A DNA stretch of 64,000 bases, from positions 124,001-188,000 of the forward strand of contig JAAERX010000051.1 of the NCBI GenBank assembly GCA_024229935.1, written 5' to 3'. Every line of letters starts with the position of its first letter. Position 1 is the first letter of the stretch. This document shows, piece after piece, positions 33,742-59,727 of this stretch. Source of the stretch: Gammaproteobacteria bacterium. Lineage in GTDB: Bacteria; Pseudomonadota; Gammaproteobacteria; Steroidobacterales; GCA-2729495. The notes beneath the pieces are model-generated. The model saw nothing but the letters and a program-made list of their open reading frames with translations, did not search any database and was not told the DNA's origin. Position numbers and translations under genes: made by a program.

Positions 33742-34455
33742 TTAGCTGGAAAAAAATCCCATCTTGGTGCCAGTAACTTCAATAACATCATTGTCACCCA
33801 GTTTGAGGGCTTGAGAGCCGAGCGGGGTGCCATTAATTGATGGCAGGCTATTAGCTTTCTTATTTTCTAACATAACAACATAGTAGCCTTTGTTGCGTTT
33901 AGTAATAGCAATTACCTGTGCACCCGGGCTGCCTAAGGTAGTTAATGCCTTATTGAGTTCCACTTCACGTCCTGCAAATTTTCCATTTAGTACCTGTACC
34001 TTGGCATTTTGTACCTGACGATAGCCTGCCTGGTTGCCGCCAGTTTTAATGTTGACTGATGGTGCAGTGGTAGTCTCGCCATGAATAGCCATTGCTGCTT
34101 GTTGTACTGCAGCCAGGGAATCGTCAATAATCATTGTGCGGGCGAATTCGTCATCCTGTTCTTCGGCAACAGTTTCAACAAAACGTAGCTGATGATGCCC
34201 CACGGTTACTGCATCACCATGTTGTAACGCATATTTCTTGACCAGCTTGCCGTTAACGTAGGTGCCGTTTGTGCTGCTCAAATCCTCAAGGAATGAGTCA
34301 TTCAGAATGTTAATAATGAGTGAATGATGTCCGCTCACTGCTGGGTTATCTATGCGTACATCATTATCAGGCAATCGCCCGATTGTGAAGCGTTCCTTGG
34401 TCATATTGAACTCGGCCAGAATTTGACCTCCAAGGCTTAGTATCAATCGTGCCAT
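33742..34455 (-). CDS. Double FHA-domain protein
   Basis: A 237-residue cytoplasmic phosphothreonine-binding protein. The first FHA domain (about 20-95) has IGRLPDNDVRIDNPAVSGHHS and LSSTNGTYVNGKLV, with all key residues. A linker with ARTMIIDD, a possible kinase target threonine, leads to a second, degenerate FHA-like domain (about 150-237: LTTLGSPGAQVIAITKRNKGYYV, SINGTPLG). It follows the PP2C phosphatase by 12 bases and is last in the kinase-phosphatase-FHA operon, so it probably reads out kinase activity. Confidence 0.9.
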   Translation of the reverse strand: MARLILSLGGQILAEFNMTKERFTIGRLPDNDVRIDNPAVSGHHSLIINILNDSFLEDLSSTNGTYVNGKLVKKYALQHGDAVTVGHHQLRFVETVAEEQDDEFARTMIIDDSLAAVQQAAMAIHGETTTAPSVNIKTGGNQAGYRQVQNAKVQVLNGKFAGREVELNKALTTLGSPGAQVIAITKRNKGYYVVMLENKKANSLPSINGTPLGSQALKLGDNDVIEVTGTKMGFFSS

Positions 34456-34467
34456 TCGTGACCTGTC

Positions 34468-35301
34468 CTATGTGTCAATACCAAAAAGTTTCTTGATTTT
34501 CGCCAGTAGGCTAACTTTTGCTGGGAAAGGTTCAAGTGCTTGAGCAATAATTACGGATATATTGTCTTTCCCGCCGTGTTCATTGCTAAGTTGAATGAGC
34601 TGTTGACCTGCCTTTTCAAGGTTAGCACTAAAAGTGCTTACAGTTAAGCGAATGTCCTCATCCTTCACCATGTCTGATAATCCATCTGAGCACAGCATGA
34701 ATATATCACCTTTCTCCACTGGAGCATCTTGTATGTCAACTATTACGTTGGGTTCTACGCCTAGAGCCCTGGTGACATAGTTGCGGTTGGTGGAGCATTC
34801 TGCTTCCTCATGGGAGTAAAAACCACGATCAACCAGTTCTTGTAGCAAGGAGTGGTCCATTGTGATCTGCTCCAGGTGGGTATCTCTTAACCTGTAAAGC
34901 CTTGAGTCACCGACATGTGCAATGGAAATTCGGTCGTTGTAGAACAGGCAGGCCACAATTGTTGTGCCCATGCCTTCACAGCCCGAGTGGCTATGTGCAG
35001 TTTGGTAGATGATTTTATTGGCACGTACGATGGCATCACGTAAGACAATAGTCTGGCGCATGAGGCCTGTATCCGATTCAATTGCTGCCCTGTCTTCAAG
35101 CTCTATCCCAGCGTTGACAAGGTCAAGAATAGTCTTGATTGCAATACTACTGGCAACTTCACCTGCATTGTAGCCACCCATTCCATCCGCAAGCATAAAG
35201 AGGCCAGCCTCACGTAGACTGCCTATGGCATCTTCATTGTGATCTCGCACTCTACCAGTGTCAGTTAATTCCACAGCGCTAATTTTATTGCTTAGATTCA
35301 T
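34468..35301 (-). CDS. PP2C-family serine/threonine phosphatase
   Basis: Metal-dependent phosphatase of 277 residues. Motifs: VRDHNEDAIG, LADGMGGYNAGEVAS, VAHVGDSRLYRL, LCSDGLSDMV and GGKDNISVIIA, which contain the acidic residues that bind the two metals. Related to PppA/Stp-type enzymes. Lies between the CHASE2 kinase and the FHA protein with only 6- and 12-base gaps, so it should reverse the kinase. Confidence 0.95.
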   Translation of the reverse strand: MNLSNKISAVELTDTGRVRDHNEDAIGSLREAGLFMLADGMGGYNAGEVASSIAIKTILDLVNAGIELEDRAAIESDTGLMRQTIVLRDAIVRANKIIYQTAHSHSGCEGMGTTIVACLFYNDRISIAHVGDSRLYRLRDTHLEQITMDHSLLQELVDRGFYSHEEAECSTNRNYVTRALGVEPNVIVDIQDAPVEKGDIFMLCSDGLSDMVKDEDIRLTVSTFSANLEKAGQQLIQLSNEHGGKDNISVIIAQALEPFPAKVSLLAKIKKLFGIDT

Positions 35302-35307
35302 TAGTTA

Positions 35308-37833
35308 TCAGGTATTTAAGTTCTTTATGCATTCACGTAATTGTATTGCTATTTCACGTCCATTTATAAAACGTTCATTGGGGTTTTTAGCCATAATCTT
35401 ATTTATGATGCTGTCTATGCATTTTGGTAAATCATTTCTTATTTCACTGGCTGGGCGATGTTTTTCATTCATGATTTTATCCATCAGTTTAGGGATGGAG
35501 TCAGCTCTGAAGGGTGCGGTGCCTGTAAGCAGCTGATACATAGTAACGCCAAGAGAATAGAGATCAGACTGCCCTGTTACACCGCAGGCAGATAGTTGCT
35601 CAGGCGACATATATGATGGAGTTCCAAGTATGATGCCAGTTTTTGTACGGCTGCTGTCAGTCAGGCGGGCAATACCAAAATCAGTAAGTTTAAGTGTGTC
35701 AGTGGCAGCGTGATACATCAGGTTGGCAGGTTTAATGTCACGATGAACAACATTTTGTCGATGTGCGTAGTCCAGTGCTTCGGCTGCCCGTGCAACCAAT
35801 TCCATCACTCGTTTAGGCGGCATCAGGTTATCTGGCTGAATGTGCTGTAAAAGGGATGTCCCTTTAAAGTATTCCATCGCCAGATAAGACACATCGTCGT
35901 CTTCACCGGCATCATATATAGCAATAATATTTGGGTGGTTCAGGCGTCCGGCTGATTCCGCCTCACGACGAAACTGTATTCTGGCGTCCTTTAACTGTGC
36001 TTCATCAAATTCTTTTGCAAGCGCTACTGTCTTTATAGCGACTTTGCGGTTGATTTTTGGGTCCCTGCCCAGATAAACCGTAGCCATTGCGCCGCGTCCA
36101 AGTATATGATCAATTTCATAGCGCCCAAGTTTTCTGCGATCTGTTGGTAGAGATACAGCACTGGCCTTTTGCTGGGCTGTCTTTTTCTTTTCTATTTTGG
36201 CGCCAGAGAGTTTATTTAGCATCTCACTGACATTTTTAAAGTTAGGGTCTATAGCGGCTATATGTGTAAGCACTCGTTCAGCACGCGCAAACTCTTTTGC
36301 CTTAATATGTGTTTGTGCGATGTCATACATCTTCCCCTTTGTTTCGTCTGTTGAAACTTGCTGACGTAATACTGAAAACTCAAGGTCAAGTGCACTTTGT
36401 TCACTGAAATTGTGTATAGGTTTTGCCTTTGGTCTGCTTTGAGCTGCTTTCGGCTTGGGTGGAGCTGCTTTTGGCCTGGATTTTGTTGCTCGTGTTTGTC
36501 GGAGTGTTGCCATATTCCAGATATGCATAGTCCAGACACTGACGGCAGAAAATATGGCGACAGTCGCAAATTGTGCCCAAATACCTTTAGATATAATTAT
36601 CCAGGCTTCAATGCCAATGATCAGTGTTGCTAGTATAAAGCCCATTAACGTAGCACCTATGGTGGGCATGGTGGGCACCCAGAGTAGAACCAGCACTAGA
36701 ATTGCCAGTAATAAGCCATTTTCAAGCAATGGCAGCCAGTCAGGGCGTATCAGATAGTCTTGTTCCAGAATATTTGACAGGCTGCTGGCTGACATTTCCA
36801 GCGGTGACATATGTGGGTTTATAGGAGTATTAATACCAGGCATTGCCGCATCACTGGACTCGCCAATAAGTATGATGCGGTCTTTAATGACAGAGGGGCT
36901 TAACTGATCTGATAAAACAGAACTAATGCTCTCGGTTCTGAATGCTGGTTGATTGGTTGTGGAGTTGTAATAACGGTTAAGTATCTGGAAATTTTTTCCG
37001 GTATGGATAATATTTCGGCCGAACACTAGTGTATTTTTGGCGGTAGCAAAAATACTTTGATTGTTAGTATTAAGTGCAGCTGCTGTGGCCAAAGCGAGTG
37101 AAGGTAGGTATACACCATTTGCGTTAATAAGTAGGTCGGTAGACCTTACTATGCCATCTGTGTCCGCCCAGAAATTACTAAAACCTATTGTGATGGCGGC
37201 TTTACAAACTGCTGCTGTTGGTACAGTTAGATAGCGTATCAGCCGGATTGTTTTAGCAGTATTAGTGGTGATGTCCTGAAAATTTATCTCATGTTTTTTG
37301 CAATTTTGTGGAGTGCTGTTTTCACCTGCAAAGTCTGTTGAGTAGGCTGTTAGTACAACATTACCGGAGTTTTTCAATTCGGCTATAAATTTTCCGCGTT
37401 GGTCATATTGATTACGGAATCCATCCAGTTGATTAGCCTGGCTGAGTTCAGGGCCTGGGGCGTATGAACGACGCGCTTGCTCTTGTAGTTTGGTGAGCGC
37501 ACGGATTTGTTTCTCATTGGGTACATCTGGCAGGTTCAGTGGCTGTGTGGCGACTATAAGTCTGGCGCCATGTTTGTTGAGGGTCTTAGTAATCTGGTTA
37601 AAATGATCATCATTCCAGATATTTTTTTGCATTTCTGTACGTGAATCGACCGTAAGCAGGAGGATTTGATCATTTGCTGTCTTATACTGGTATTGTTGGA
37701 AGTAGTCATAAACCAGATTCTCGAGTCCATTGAGTCGGCCAATCATTGCAATTGCCATTGCGATTAGAATGAGCGTAGCAGCAGGCCAGAGTCGACTGTT
37801 GTTAGTTTGTAGGTTGTAGGCTCGGGAATTCAT
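35308..37833 (-). CDS. CHASE2-domain receptor serine/threonine protein kinase
   Basis: An 841-residue membrane kinase. N-terminal transmembrane helix, an extracytoplasmic CHASE2 sensor domain (about 30-340), a cluster of transmembrane helices (about 370-450), a Lys/Pro/Ala-rich linker with KPKAA/RPKA repeats and a TPR-like helical part, then a Hanks-type kinase domain (about 570-835). The kinase has GRGAMATVYLG, the VAIK lysine, HRDIKPANLM, DFGIARL and SPEQ, so it should be active and of the RD type. CHASE2 binds unknown ligands. First gene of a three-gene operon with PP2C and FHA partners; no type VI secretion genes are nearby. Confidence 0.93.
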   Translation of the reverse strand: MNSRAYNLQTNNSRLWPAATLILIAMAIAMIGRLNGLENLVYDYFQQYQYKTANDQILLLTVDSRTEMQKNIWNDDHFNQITKTLNKHGARLIVATQPLNLPDVPNEKQIRALTKLQEQARRSYAPGPELSQANQLDGFRNQYDQRGKFIAELKNSGNVVLTAYSTDFAGENSTPQNCKKHEINFQDITTNTAKTIRLIRYLTVPTAAVCKAAITIGFSNFWADTDGIVRSTDLLINANGVYLPSLALATAAALNTNNQSIFATAKNTLVFGRNIIHTGKNFQILNRYYNSTTNQPAFRTESISSVLSDQLSPSVIKDRIILIGESSDAAMPGINTPINPHMSPLEMSASSLSNILEQDYLIRPDWLPLLENGLLLAILVLVLLWVPTMPTIGATLMGFILATLIIGIEAWIIISKGIWAQFATVAIFSAVSVWTMHIWNMATLRQTRATKSRPKAAPPKPKAAQSRPKAKPIHNFSEQSALDLEFSVLRQQVSTDETKGKMYDIAQTHIKAKEFARAERVLTHIAAIDPNFKNVSEMLNKLSGAKIEKKKTAQQKASAVSLPTDRRKLGRYEIDHILGRGAMATVYLGRDPKINRKVAIKTVALAKEFDEAQLKDARIQFRREAESAGRLNHPNIIAIYDAGEDDDVSYLAMEYFKGTSLLQHIQPDNLMPPKRVMELVARAAEALDYAHRQNVVHRDIKPANLMYHAATDTLKLTDFGIARLTDSSRTKTGIILGTPSYMSPEQLSACGVTGQSDLYSLGVTMYQLLTGTAPFRADSIPKLMDKIMNEKHRPASEIRNDLPKCIDSIINKIMAKNPNERFINGREIAIQLRECIKNLNT

Positions 37834-44406: not shown

Positions 44407-45315
44407 GTGCATTACATGTTTAGTGAATTTTCTGCTGTAAGATACCGCCGGCATCAGTTGGCGGTTCGCGTTCCAGCTGTTATTTCTATAGCAGTAGTAA
44501 TACTGTTCGTCTGTCTTTTGAGCGGTTGTGGCTCAATTGTTTCCAGCATGTCTGATGGCTTGTCAGGGGCTATTCTCAATCAGGAAGACCCTGAGCTGGT
44601 GCGTGAAGCCTTGCCTTCTTATCTGCTGCTTCTGGATGGTTTTGCCCGGTCCAATCCTGATAATGTGGATGCACTTTCTGCTGCTGCTCAACTGTACACT
44701 GCGTATGGTGCTGCCTTAATTGATGACCCCGTACGGTCTGCAAAGTTGACTGCTCATGCCAAAGACTATGGTGAGCAGGCCTTGTGTGCATCCAATGGTG
44801 ATGCTTGTGGGCTTGATGGTATCGACTTTGATCAATATGAAGCCATCATTCGCTCAACAGGTGAGGATGATGTGCTGGCTTTGTTTAGTTATAGCCTGAG
44901 TACGCTTGCCTGGATTCGTTTTAATTCAACGAATTTTGATGCTTTAGTAGATTTGCCCAAGATGGAAGTAGCGCTTGATCATTTATATAGTCTTGACCCG
45001 GGCGAATATAAGGCAGCTACCTGTATGTACCTTGGTGTACTCAATACACTGCGTCCCCCTGCCTTGGGAGGTAAGCCGGAGCTGGCTCGTGAATGGTTTG
45101 AGCGTGGTATCAGTTTGTCTGAGGGCAGGGACCTGAGTATTAAGGTTGAGTATGCGCGTGGCTATGCAAGGCTGTTATATGACCGTGAATTGTATGATCG
45201 TTTATTGAACGAAGTCATGCAGGCAGATGTCAAACAGTCTGATCTCACGCTTTTTAACGTGCTTGCACAAGAACAGGCAGCTGCTTTGCTGGCTAGCGCG
45301 GATGATTATTTTTAA
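44407..45315 (+). CDS. tatT: TRAP transporter TatT-family lipoprotein
   Basis: A 302-residue lipoprotein with lipobox LLSGC (cysteine about residue 39) and a helical body of TPR-like repeats, matching the TatT component described for Treponema pallidum. TatT forms a trimer that docks the TRAP binding protein and may pass ligand to it. The N-terminus before the lipobox is long; ATG 44416 or a TTG at 44458 would give a more normal signal peptide. Immediately followed by DctP, DctQ and DctM genes, which supports the assignment. Confidence 0.85.
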   Translation: MHYMFSEFSAVRYRRHQLAVRVPAVISIAVVILFVCLLSGCGSIVSSMSDGLSGAILNQEDPELVREALPSYLLLLDGFARSNPDNVDALSAAAQLYTAYGAALIDDPVRSAKLTAHAKDYGEQALCASNGDACGLDGIDFDQYEAIIRSTGEDDVLALFSYSLSTLAWIRFNSTNFDALVDLPKMEVALDHLYSLDPGEYKAATCMYLGVLNTLRPPALGGKPELAREWFERGISLSEGRDLSIKVEYARGYARLLYDRELYDRLLNEVMQADVKQSDLTLFNVLAQEQAAALLASADDYF

Positions 45316-45331
45316 TGGTGAAGTTAATTTC

Positions 45332-46396
45332 ATGACACGACTAGGAAATATAAGAGTGGGGAATTTGCGGTTAGCTAAGTTCCTCTTTGTGGGCATTGCA
45401 GCTGTAATGTTTAGCCTGACTGCCCAGGCAGCCGTATTCAAAATTGCTACCGTTGTGCCTGAGGGCTCTGACTGGATGCTTGAATTTCGCACTGCTGCTG
45501 AAAAGATCAAGACGCGCACTGAAGGCCGTGTGATATTTAAGTTTTACGGCGGCGGCATTATGGGTAATGACAAGAAAGTCTTGAAAAAGATTCGTATTGG
45601 TCAGTTACAAGGCGGTGCATTTTCTACAGGTGGGCTTGTAGATAAATATCATGATATTGAGCTATATGGCCTGCCTTTTGTGTTTAATTCACAGGCTGAA
45701 GTCGACTATGTGCGTGAAAAATATGATGCTCAGTTACTAGCGGGTTTGCGTGAGGCTGGCTTCATGAGCTTTGGGTTTGCTGGCGGTGGCTTTGCAAATT
45801 TTATGAGCGGTGACCCTATTCATGGTCAGCAGGATCTTGAGGGTAGAAAACTTTGGATACCTGATGGTGATTTTAGTAGTTTTACTGCTCTGAAAATGAT
45901 GAACCTTTCTCCTGTTGTGTTGCCTTTGTCTGATGTCCTCACCGGACTACAAACTGGTTTGCTTGATGTTGTAGTTGCACCACCATCTGTTGCTTTATTG
46001 CTGCAGTGGTACACCAAGGTTAGTTATATTAATCCGCTGCCGGTTTCATTTACACTCGGCATACTTGCAATTGATAACCGGGCTTTTGATCGTATCAGTG
46101 AAGCTGACCAGGATATTGTGACGGAAGTTATGACAGATACGTATGTCCACTTTGATCAGGCTAATCGAATTGCTAATGTGAAGGCAGAAGAAACGTTATT
46201 GAAGAATGGTCTGCAGCTTGCAGAAGCTAATGATGAGATTATTTCTTACTGGCGCGGCGTTGCTAAGGAAACAAACGCAAAAATATGGACTGAAAAAGCA
46301 GTTGATAAAAACTTGCTTGCTGAGTTGGTGGCGGTATTGGCCGAATATCGTGCAATGGGTGGCAGTGATGAGGCTGTTGCTAATGCAGTTCAGTAA
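45332..46396 (+). CDS. TRAP transporter substrate-binding protein, DctP/TatP type
   Basis: Periplasmic binding protein of a TRAP transporter. Signal peptide ends about ...LTAQA; mature part starts VFKIATVVPEGSDWMLEF. The family segment DLxGxKIRVP reads DLEGRKLWIPDGD here, so the arginine that normally clamps the substrate carboxylate is Trp175. Then LSDVLTGLQTGLLDVVVAPP, typical of DctP. The ORF runs upstream into tatT, but ATG 45332 gives the proper signal peptide. 354 residues. The ligand is probably not a simple carboxylate. Confidence 0.9.
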   Translation: MTRLGNIRVGNLRLAKFLFVGIAAVMFSLTAQAAVFKIATVVPEGSDWMLEFRTAAEKIKTRTEGRVIFKFYGGGIMGNDKKVLKKIRIGQLQGGAFSTGGLVDKYHDIELYGLPFVFNSQAEVDYVREKYDAQLLAGLREAGFMSFGFAGGGFANFMSGDPIHGQQDLEGRKLWIPDGDFSSFTALKMMNLSPVVLPLSDVLTGLQTGLLDVVVAPPSVALLLQWYTKVSYINPLPVSFTLGILAIDNRAFDRISEADQDIVTEVMTDTYVHFDQANRIANVKAEETLLKNGLQLAEANDEIISYWRGVAKETNAKIWTEKAVDKNLLAELVAVLAEYRAMGGSDEAVANAVQ

Positions 46397-46419
46397 GCAA
46401 CTGGCTGGCAGTTGAAACG

Positions 46420-46911
46420 TTGTTGGATAAAGCTGACAAACTGGGTCGGTGGCTGGAAAATGCCTTATTAACAAGCTTGTTACTTGCCATGATGGGGCTT
46501 GGCGCGGCTCAGATTTTATTGCGTTGGAGTGGCGAGGGTAGTTTTATATGGAGTGATGAAGCCGTTCGATTGATGGTGCTTTGGATAGCTATGATTGCAG
46601 GGGTGGCTGCAGCTCGGGAAGACCGTCATATTGCTATAGATGTTTTGGCGCGTGGCTTGTCGCAGCGGGGTAGGGTGTATGCAGCTGCTGTTGTTAATTT
46701 GTTTACTGTAGTTGTCTGTTTTGCACTTGCCTGGTACGCATTAGAAATGGTGGGTTACACCATCGAAGATGGCGATACCCTCTTAAGTGGAATGCCATTA
46801 TGGTGGTTTCAGAGTGTTATGCCCGTTGGTTTTTTTTTGATGGGGTATCGCTATACGATTTGGTTTTATCGGCATCTGCGTGAAGCCTTGCGACCCGGAG
46901 AGGGCGCATGA
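46420..46911 (+). CDS. TRAP transporter small permease (DctQ type)
   Basis: 163 residues with four hydrophobic helices, including LLLAMMGLGAAQILLRW, SDEAVRLMVLWIAMIAGVAAAREDRHIAIDVL and MPLWWFQSVMPVGFFLMGYRY, typical of DctQ. TTG start (46420 or 46423). The stop overlaps the DctM start by four bases. Works with DctM in the inner membrane. Confidence 0.92.
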   Translation: MLDKADKLGRWLENALLTSLLLAMMGLGAAQILLRWSGEGSFIWSDEAVRLMVLWIAMIAGVAAAREDRHIAIDVLARGLSQRGRVYAAAVVNLFTVVVCFALAWYALEMVGYTIEDGDTLLSGMPLWWFQSVMPVGFFLMGYRYTIWFYRHLREALRPGEGA

Positions 46912-48167
46912 TGATTGCCAGTTTGCTGCTGATTATCCTGGCATTATTTGGCGCTCCCTTATTCGCAATAATTGCGGCAGGTGCGTTACTTAGTTTTATC
47001 GCCCTTGATCCTGCTTTCGCGGTTACAGTTCCGTTAGAAATATACAGTATTGCAGACATGCCCATTCTGCTGGCCATTCCTTTGTTTACCTTTGCCGGGT
47101 ATCTGGTGAGTGAAAGTCAGGCGCCTGCCAGACTGGTTCGCCTGACAAATGCATTATTAGGCTGGATGCCAGGTGGGTTGGCTATTGTTGCTATTGTTGC
47201 CTGCTCATTTTTCACGGCATTCACAGGTGCATCAGGTGTAACCATTATTGCGCTTGGGGCTATTCTTTATCCTGCGCTCACTCAGGCAGGTTATAAAGAG
47301 CGCTTTAATCTTGGTCTGGTGACTTCTGGTGGGAGTCTGGGTTTACTATTTGCACCATCATTACCATTGATCCTTTATGGTGTTATTGCTGAGGTCAACA
47401 TTGATGACCTGTTTCTAGCGGGTATCTTGCCTGGAACCTTAATGCTGCTTGCGCTTTCTATCTGGTCGTTATGGGTTAATAGGTCTAATCGTCTACCCTT
47501 AAAGCATTTTTCATTGCAAGAAGTATTTTCAGCTTTCCGTGATTCATTGTGGGAATTGCCATTGCCGGTGGTTGTACTTGGCGGAATATATTCCGGGTTG
47601 CTGGCCGTTTCTGAGGCGGCAGCTGTGACGGCACTGTATGTTTTTTTTGTGGAGGTGCTGATACGTCGTGAAATTTCATTCATTCGCCTTCCGGGCATTA
47701 TGCGTGAATCTATGGTGTTGGTTGGTGGCATTTTATTGATTCTGGGCGCTTCATTGGCATCTACTAATTATGTGATTGATGCCGAGGTTCCGCAGAAATT
47801 GATTGGCTTTGTGTCCCAGTTTATTGAAGGGCGGGCAAGTTTTTTGATCCTCTTGTTATTTTTTCTTCTGATCCTTGGTGCATTTCTGGATATTTTTTCT
47901 GCTTTGGTTCTGATTGTGCCGCTCATTTTGCCTGTGGCCGCACAGTTTGGTGTCGATCCGGTTCATTTGGGCATCATTTTTCTGGCGACTATGCAGCTTG
48001 GGTATCTGACGCCACCGGTAGGCCTGAACTTGTTTATTGCCAGTTATCGCTTCAATAAACCAATCCTGCAGGTTTACCGGGCAACATTTCCGTTCTTGCT
48101 TATTCTTCTGATTACAGTTGTGATGATTATATTTTGGCCAGGATTGTCCCTGATGTTACTTAACTAG
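46908..48167 (+). CDS. TRAP transporter large permease (DctM type)
   Basis: 419 residues with about twelve membrane helices. Shows ADMPILLAIPLFTFAGYLVSES, ACSFFTAFTGASGVTIIALG, SGGSLGLLFAPSLPLILYG and LATMQLGYLTPPVGLNLFIAS, the DctM signature stretches. It carries the Na+-coupled transport path. Overlaps DctQ (ATGA). Confidence 0.94.
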   Translation: MMIASLLLIILALFGAPLFAIIAAGALLSFIALDPAFAVTVPLEIYSIADMPILLAIPLFTFAGYLVSESQAPARLVRLTNALLGWMPGGLAIVAIVACSFFTAFTGASGVTIIALGAILYPALTQAGYKERFNLGLVTSGGSLGLLFAPSLPLILYGVIAEVNIDDLFLAGILPGTLMLLALSIWSLWVNRSNRLPLKHFSLQEVFSAFRDSLWELPLPVVVLGGIYSGLLAVSEAAAVTALYVFFVEVLIRREISFIRLPGIMRESMVLVGGILLILGASLASTNYVIDAEVPQKLIGFVSQFIEGRASFLILLLFFLLILGAFLDIFSALVLIVPLILPVAAQFGVDPVHLGIIFLATMQLGYLTPPVGLNLFIASYRFNKPILQVYRATFPFLLILLITVVMIIFWPGLSLMLLN

Positions 48168-48182
48168 GTTATATATTGTCTG

Positions 48183-49298
48183 ATGCGTGCACAGCTTAAT
48201 TTTAAATACTTTTTTCTTTTCTATGTGTTTTTTAGCTGCGCCCCTGTATTCGCAGACGCTGTACTAACGGTCCCGCCCGGGTTCAAAATAGAACGGATTG
48301 CAACTGTTCCTAAAGCGCGTTCTATGGTGTGGGGAGAACAGGAAACTCTGTTTGTATCGACTCAGTTTGCTGGAAAGATTTATGCGGTAACAAATATATT
48401 TTCTACTAAGCCCTTAGTACAGATTGTTGCAGAGGGATTACGTATTTCAAATGGCATCGCCTTTTATGATGGTGATCTTTATGTTGCTGAAGCTACAAGA
48501 ATAATAGTCTATCGTGATATTGAAGCTCGACTTGAAAAGCCTGGTGTGCCTGAAGTTATTATTGATAACTTACCGGCAGAAAAATTACATAGCTGGAAAT
48601 ATCTTGCTTTCGGCCCTGATAAAAAGCTTTATGTTTCAATTGGTGCACCTTGTAATATATGTGAAGTAACTAATTCTGGAATGATTGCACGTATGAATCC
48701 TGATGGTACAGATTTTGAAGCCTATGCCAGAGGTATTCGCAATTCGGTTGGCTTTGCATGGCATCCGCTGACAGCGGAGCTTTGGTTCACTGATAACAAC
48801 CGTGACCTGCTGGGTGATGATAAACCTCTTGATGAGTTAAATAAGGCAGATAGGCCAGGACTGCACTTTGGCTTCCCGTTTTGTCATGGCGCTGAGCTGG
48901 TTGAGCCCGATGCTGATCTGGCTGCATTGGGCAGCTGTAATGAGTCTGTAGGCCCGGTTCAGGAGCTGGGTCCGCACGTGGCACCTTTGGGTATAGCTTT
49001 CTATACTGGCATGATGTTCCCTCAAAGTTATAAGAAACAGGTGTTTATAGCTGAACATGGTTCATGGAACAGAAGTGAGAAAATTGGTTATCGTATAAGT
49101 CTGGTGCGTCTTGATAAGGCAGGCCAAAGTAGTTTGAGTTATGAGCCTTTTGCCGAGGGCTGGTTGCAGGATGGCAAAGTTAGCGGTCGACCGGTTGATT
49201 TACTGGTTGCCCCCGATGGCTCTTTGCTTGTCAGTGAAGATAAGCACGGGGCAATTTATCGGATTAGCTATACTGCTGGTTCAATCGAATCTGAATAA
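48183..49298 (+). CDS. PQQ-dependent sugar dehydrogenase-like protein (GSDH/sorbosone dehydrogenase family)
   Basis: A 371-residue secreted six-bladed propeller protein with a signal peptide ending about FADA. PPGFKIERIATVPKARSMVWG, SWKYLAFGPDKKLYVSIG, ARGIRNSVGFAWHPLTAELWFTDN, PGLHFGFPFCHG, and HGSWNRSEKIGYRI match the GSDH family. Cofactor and substrate cannot be read from sequence. A CNIC pair is not a heme site because no histidine follows. It lies 15 bases after the TRAP permease gene and is probably co-transcribed. Confidence 0.85.
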   Translation: MRAQLNFKYFFLFYVFFSCAPVFADAVLTVPPGFKIERIATVPKARSMVWGEQETLFVSTQFAGKIYAVTNIFSTKPLVQIVAEGLRISNGIAFYDGDLYVAEATRIIVYRDIEARLEKPGVPEVIIDNLPAEKLHSWKYLAFGPDKKLYVSIGAPCNICEVTNSGMIARMNPDGTDFEAYARGIRNSVGFAWHPLTAELWFTDNNRDLLGDDKPLDELNKADRPGLHFGFPFCHGAELVEPDADLAALGSCNESVGPVQELGPHVAPLGIAFYTGMMFPQSYKKQVFIAEHGSWNRSEKIGYRISLVRLDKAGQSSLSYEPFAEGWLQDGKVSGRPVDLLVAPDGSLLVSEDKHGAIYRISYTAGSIESE

Positions 49299-58309: not shown

Positions 58310-58957
58310 GTGAGGATAATCAGGCTATTTGTTTCTTGTGTGGTTTTATTTTTTTTGCAGCTGGGTGTTGTTCAGGCACAAGAGACTGCAATTGAATCAC
58401 CTATTGAAGTTATTGAGGTAACAGCCACTGCATTACAAAAGGAGCTAACCGGAAGGAAAGCTTATTTTGAAGAACATCAGGCTGAACTTTATGCTGTGAT
58501 TGATCGTGTGTTATTACCCCATTTTGATATTCAGTATGCAGGCAAACAGGTTCTGGGAAAAACTCATTGGATGGCTTCCACAGATGCGCAGCATAAAGCA
58601 TTTATAGATGTCTTTTATAATTTCCTGGTTAAGACCTATGCCAAGGGTATTCTTGAGTTTGATCAGGATCGTATGAGTATTCTGCCTGACTTAAGTTATT
58701 CAAAGAATAGACGTAAGGCGTTAGTTACTACGCGATTGTTGCTTGAAGGTGGTGATAGCGTACTAATTAAATATGCGCTTCGTGAGGTATCAACGGTCTG
58801 GAAAATCTATGATGTGCGTATAGACGGGGTGTCATATATTCAGAATTATCGGAATCAGTTTGATGCTGAAATTAACGCTCTGGGTATTGATGCCGTGATT
58901 GACAGGCTTGAAAAAGAAGCTATAGCTCCTGCTGTTGTTACACCGGCAGATACTTAA
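58310..58957 (+). CDS. mlaC: MlaC/Ttg2-type phospholipid-binding periplasmic protein
   Basis: 215-residue protein with a signal peptide ending about VVQA-QE. IDRVLLPHFDIQYAGKQVLGKTHW, FLVKTYAKGILEFDQDR and VLIKYALREVSTVWKIYDVRIDGVSYIQNYRNQF match MlaC, which carries phospholipids between MlaA-OmpC and the MlaFEDB transporter. The start is GTG 58310 with AAGGAA upstream. It is not in an mla operon here: it stands alone and converges on mlaA, overlapping it by four bases. Confidence 0.92.
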   Translation: MRIIRLFVSCVVLFFLQLGVVQAQETAIESPIEVIEVTATALQKELTGRKAYFEEHQAELYAVIDRVLLPHFDIQYAGKQVLGKTHWMASTDAQHKAFIDVFYNFLVKTYAKGILEFDQDRMSILPDLSYSKNRRKALVTTRLLLEGGDSVLIKYALREVSTVWKIYDVRIDGVSYIQNYRNQFDAEINALGIDAVIDRLEKEAIAPAVVTPADT

Positions 58958-59727
58958 AAATCGTCGTCAAAGCTGTCATCAAAGCCTTCATCTGTTTCGC
59001 CGATGATGCCATCATTTATTAGAAATGCGCGATTCTGCAGGTAGGCATCGCGAACAAAAAGATAAGGGTCAAATGCGTCGAAGATCAGCTCATCAGGACC
59101 AACGAGTGCTGCACGGGATTCAATGGCCCAAAGAATAAGTAATTTGTCACGTACACTGGTGTTGCTGTAGTAATTCAGTAAATTTACTCGCCAGTCTGCC
59201 AGCGTCCCTATGCCACTACGTACTGTGCGTGGGCCAAATAATGGCACAACAATATATGGGCCGGCTGGGATGCCCCATTTGGCAAAAGTTTGGCCAAAAT
59301 CTTCATCGTGATATTCCAGGCCCATAGGTGTGGCAACATCAAAAAGGCCGAGCAGTCCCAGGGTTGTATTAAGTGCAAATCTGCCTGTATCTGCAAAGCC
59401 TTGTTTAAACTTTCCTTGCAGGAAGTCATTTACGATGGTGACTGTGTAGGTGATGTTATCAAAGAAGTTGCTAATCCCTGTTTCTACAAAATTGGGTGTT
59501 ATGAATTGGTAGCCTTTAGCAACAGGGCGCAGGATGTAACGATCGGTCACATCATTGAACTTGTATATAGGCCGATTGATAACCTCAAGTGGGTCAGCAT
59601 TTGGCTCAGCTTTAGATGCTTTTCTGGATGCGCAGCCTGTATTAAGTAAGAGAGCTGAAACTAAAAGCAGAAATAGCGGTAAATATGTAAACAGGCGCCA
59701 CCTTTGATTACTACGCCCTACGCTCAT
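58954..59727 (-). CDS. mlaA: MlaA (VacJ) family outer membrane lipoprotein
   Basis: 257 residues with lipobox LLNTGC. DPLEVINRPIYKFNDVTDRYILRPVAKGYQFI, FFDNITYTVTIVNDFLQGKF, RFALNTTLGLLGLFDVATPMGL and FGQTFAKWGIPAGPYIVVPLFGP are standard MlaA. It removes misplaced phospholipids from the outer leaflet. Its start overlaps the bepA stop by four bases, and its C-terminus is acidic (DDSFDDDF). Confidence 0.95.
   Translation of the reverse strand: MSVGRSNQRWRLFTYLPLFLLLVSALLLNTGCASRKASKAEPNADPLEVINRPIYKFNDVTDRYILRPVAKGYQFITPNFVETGISNFFDNITYTVTIVNDFLQGKFKQGFADTGRFALNTTLGLLGLFDVATPMGLEYHDEDFGQTFAKWGIPAGPYIVVPLFGPRTVRSGIGTLADWRVNLLNYYSNTSVRDKLLILWAIESRAALVGPDELIFDAFDPYLFVRDAYLQNRAFLINDGIIGETDEGFDDSFDDDF

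Follow-up and report, generated by a model that had tools for sequence, protein, structure and literature searches.

Within the 64,000-nucleotide stretch of gammaproteobacterial DNA analysed here (the window), four genes follow one another at short spacing on the plus strand between 44407 and 48167. The first, tatT (44407-45315, starting at GTG 44407 or ATG 44416), encodes a TRAP transporter T-component lipoprotein (PF16811, E 5.3e-62); it is followed by dctP (45332-46396, ATG 45332), identified by PF03480 (E 2e-31), by the NCBIfam model TRAP_S1 (NF037995, E 7e-73) and by its place in the clade tree. The small permease subunit is encoded by dctQ (46420-46911, TTG start; PF04290, E 6.4e-26) and the large subunit by dctM (46908-48167; PF06808, E 1.3e-78; TIGR00786 above cut-off); the two overlap by 4 bases and are separate genes rather than the fused QM of the Treponema-type system. 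An earlier note on this DNA had described a TatT lipoprotein gene ahead of complete DctP, DctQ and DctM genes, and this is borne out by the Pfam and NCBIfam matches. As the Pfam search places a PF16811 TatT gene directly beside a TRAP system, and every TPAT feature that was tested here is present, the locus belongs to the known group of tetratricopeptide-repeat-protein-associated TRAP transporters (TPATs). Behind dctM lies a gene for an exported β-propeller resembling glucose/sorbosone dehydrogenases (48183-49298, plus strand; PF07995, E 1.2e-12). Elsewhere in the window, a signalling set of FHA-domain protein, PP2C phosphatase and CHASE2 serine/threonine kinase occupies 33742-37833 on the minus strand; at a distance of roughly 10 kb from the TPAT set, a lone mlaC (plus strand) converges with mlaA (minus strand), their ends overlapping, at 58310-59727. 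This is the sole MlaC found in the genome; MlaA and MlaC act in phospholipid transport between membranes.

The signal sequence of TatT ends in LSGC-G, with the lipobox LSGC at residues 38-41 counted from the GTG and Gly at +2. A lipobox-like Cys is detected by pattern in 91 of 110 TatT homologues, and most of the remaining ones shown also have a Cys there; among the 91 pattern-positive homologues, position +2 usually carries Ser, Ala or Thr, whereas Asp occurs there in a single case. Sorting of lipoproteins to the outer membrane (OM) follows a +2 rule known from E. coli, and a lipobox without Asp at +2 is consistent with the OM-anchored TatT that had been proposed earlier. A structural model of TatT, with a mean pLDDT of 77, matches 8g52 (titled TPAT family transporter), 3u64 (Tp0956) and 4di3_A, which is TatT in complex with TatP(T), with E-values of 8e-9 to 4e-7 and TM-scores of 0.71-0.81; compared with 3u64 (TM 0.74/0.81), it has the helical, TPR-like fold of Tp0956. 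A weak match to 7t1s, titled bacterial sterol transporter, is also seen. One homologue, at L096 of genome G362, has a weaker TatT match (80 bits) and no recognisable TRAP neighbour; it may be a stand-alone T-component.

The arginine of the carboxylate clamp is present in 96.8% of 6,142 DctP sequences (PMC4646407). In DctP from the window this canonical residue is absent: in the motif K-L-W-I-P, alignment to solved canonical DctP structures from the PDB puts a Trp, encoded by TGG at 45854-45856 on the plus strand, in the column of the conserved Arg, at the position of SiaP Arg147. With residues counted from the base after ATG 45332, this Trp is residue 174. The column was compared across 108 TatT-linked DctPs from related gammaproteobacteria, namely those beside TatTs in a 369-genome sample of the class together with the DctPs of 20 further genomes of the host order; it holds Trp in 106, Phe in 2 and Arg in none. 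Both Phe proteins fall, together with one Trp-bearing protein, into a small clade of the tree whose QM permease is a fusion or, from its length, seems to be one. In the same alignment Arg occupies the column in all 31 controls, which are HMM-selected DctPs of other TRAP systems, including the two other DctPs of the source genome; these belong mostly to one DctP subfamily, so that what they show is a contrast between close relatives, not a census. The PDB alignments and the Arg-bearing controls thus confirm the earlier note in reading the Trp of KLWIP as leaving no clamp arginine; another Arg at the clamp position, which the note had named as evidence against itself, was looked for in the alignment, and none is there. 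The note's wording that this binding protein had "lost" the arginine does not hold, as Arg is missing across the entire TatT-linked clade. From the alignment, its absence is a rule for TatT-linked DctPs and no quirk of one genome, and it should not be taken for a local oddity; that TatP(T) homologues mostly lack the arginine is already published (PMC5812351, PMC4646407).

The tree gathers the TatT-linked DctPs into a single clade (support 0.991), set off by a long branch. TatT itself is found above cut-off in 87 of the 369 genomes sampled across the class Gammaproteobacteria; a profile of the DctP clade, applied to the same genomes with a cut-off of 1e-60, gives 91 matches set off by a clear gap, the weakest at E 2.8e-98. 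A tatT gene lies within 3 kb of the clade DctP in 88 of these 91, and in the remaining three genomes TatT or part of it is found on a different contig or at the end of a contig. Among genomes of the host order, 66 of 97 have a TPAT DctP. All 25 of the loci that were compared keep the order rimM-trmD-rplS-tatT-dctP; 22 of them are known to come from the host order, two are MAG contigs, and one, L078, lies outside the order. In 24 loci dctQ and dctM come next, the exception being one truncated contig; sppA lies downstream in 22, and the glucose/sorbosone-dehydrogenase-like gene stands between dctM and sppA in 14. The β-propeller gene comes after dctM in some members of the order and not in others, and so is possibly, but not necessarily, an operon member. 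The fixed housekeeping neighbourhood suggests vertical inheritance, and the tatT-dctPQM set between rplS and sppA looks inherited in the host order, not acquired. The conserved neighbours do not name a substrate: they are housekeeping genes, joined patchily by the glucose/sorbosone-dehydrogenase-like gene. Another TPAT subclade, with a motif like WLWQGDP and members in several families, adjoins dapE-like genes, and in many cases dapD-like and ArsC/Spx-like ones as well (L041, L042, L057, L059, L080, L094, L109 and L112; gene names read from the sequences).

DctP from the window has a type-I-like signal peptide and no lipobox, and 84 of 88 such DctPs are likewise without one; the binding protein is therefore probably soluble, unlike that of Treponema. 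The published TPAT model has a hydrophobic ligand pass from the OM through TatT to DctP and on to DctQM, as given in PMC5812351, which cites Deka 2012 and Brautigam 2012 and also describes the TatT pore and the TatP(T) cleft as hydrophobic. Applied to this locus, OM-anchored TatT would hold a hydrophobic molecule in its pore and hand it over to soluble DctP, whose cleft would present an aromatic residue in place of the carboxylate clamp; DctP would then deliver the molecule to DctQM for import by cation symport. The TPAT model is the best supported mechanism. The genes present, the fold of TatT and the pattern of residues are shown directly for this locus; the identity of the ligand as a hydrophobic molecule, its hand-over and a core role in the envelope we infer. 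We give a probability of roughly 0.6 to the reading in which the locus is a TPAT that works by this hydrophobic hand-over and serves an inherited core role.

A fixed Trp without clamp Arg fits a greasy, non-acid cargo, without naming one. Of the lipid-like or aromatic substrate suggested in the earlier note, the hydrophobic character is consistent with these results; nothing found identifies the ligand as lipid-like or aromatic. In the host order the system has the look of inherited core equipment, which suits the handling of an envelope lipid or a different hydrophobic compound better than that of an optional nutrient. FadL would be the expected partner for long-chain fatty acids or hydrocarbons. 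It is not in the source genome, and within the host order it is no commoner with a TPAT DctP (15 of 66 genomes) than without (8 of 31); a FadL-fed fatty-acid or hydrocarbon route is thus not supported.

Several further positions are near-fixed in TPAT DctPs and mostly differ in the 31 controls: Trp47 (99/108), Arg127 (107/108, mostly Tyr in the controls), Asp179 (106/108) and Trp225 (105/108). Several canonical proteins have a second Arg (G-x-R-N); most TPATs carry Ala, Ile or Val there, and Tp0957 has Leu. A DctP structure predicted from three sequences reached a pLDDT of 43, too poor for any claim, and which residues line the cleft is for this reason a matter of inference; the clamp Trp would point into the cleft, judged by the place of the Arg that it substitutes. 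The missing clamp Arg argues against the usual carboxylate contact, not against every acid. Arg127 is the chief caveat, as a different ionic contact is possible and this residue could in principle touch an acid from another side. Such an acid substrate, with Arg127 or Arg87 replacing the clamp elsewhere in the cleft and the Trp doing no more than pack against aromatic or aliphatic portions of the ligand, would agree with the near-invariance of Arg127, with the Arg or Lys found at position 87 in 106 of 108 TPAT DctPs, and with the finding that SiaP without Arg147 still functions at high substrate concentration (PMC4646407); however, Arg127 appears to align with variable positions of canonical proteins and not with a known ligand contact, and the Tp0957 cleft is hydrophobic (PMC5812351); we consider an acid unlikely. 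A small neutral or cationic ligand, with TatT as a docking partner and not a lipid carrier, is quite improbable; the ethanolamine-binding Csal_0678 also lacks the Arg (PMC4646407) and the fixed Asp179 could meet a cation, but TatT-fold proteins have hydrophobic pores (PMC5812351) and the TatT relative BstC is a proposed sterol binder (PMC10942540). A chance origin of the Trp by mutation, in a transporter that is in decay or was lately altered in the source genome alone, has nothing beyond the single sequence in its favour and is ruled out by the conservation of Trp in TatT-linked DctPs, with gene order intact in relatives; retention of Trp in relatives also means that the codon is no sequencing slip.

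The reading as a TPAT with hydrophobic hand-over is tentatively extended to a possible wider one, which we hold with much reserve: the clamp Trp with Trp47, Arg127 and Asp179 would define a widespread gammaproteobacterial TPAT class, whose aromatic-walled site would take up one conserved hydrophobic compound for a core envelope function and not for nutrient scavenging. At the level of alignment, what is added to the published picture is the near-invariant Trp together with the clade-typical Trp47, Arg127 and Asp179; we do not put the Trp forward as a first description.

For the TPAT group, earlier papers already report both the lack of the arginine and a hydrophobic ligand (PMC4646407 and PMC5812351). 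The TPAT of Treponema pallidum (Tp0956 TatT, Tp0957 TatP(T), TatQM) shares with this locus the TatT fold (3u64, 4di3), the position of TatT beside DctP and the lack of a clamp arginine, and the aligned Trp47 and Asp179 of Tp0957 are also found in DctP from the window. It differs in that Tp0957 has Ala at the clamp (in our alignment and as published, PMC4646407) where the source DctP has Trp, that its QM is fused (PMC5812351) whereas Q and M are separate here, and that its TatP(T) is a lipoprotein (PMC5812351) whereas the DctP described here seems soluble. Other gammaproteobacterial TPAT systems have the same genes and the same Trp, although another subclade has dap neighbours in place of rplS and sppA. 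Canonical DctP-TRAP systems such as SiaPQM and DctPQM share the DctP, DctQ and DctM families but possess the clamp arginine and lack a TatT. BstC, the T-component homologue of the bacterial sterol transport set, belongs to the T-component superfamily and likewise has a proposed hydrophobic ligand (PMC10942540); its partners, however, are BstA and BstB, with no TRAP transporter. None of the papers cited here establishes a TPAT substrate. A search for one could conveniently use proteins of the present clade, which lies outside Treponema, has both its Trp and its gene order fixed and seems to have a soluble DctP.
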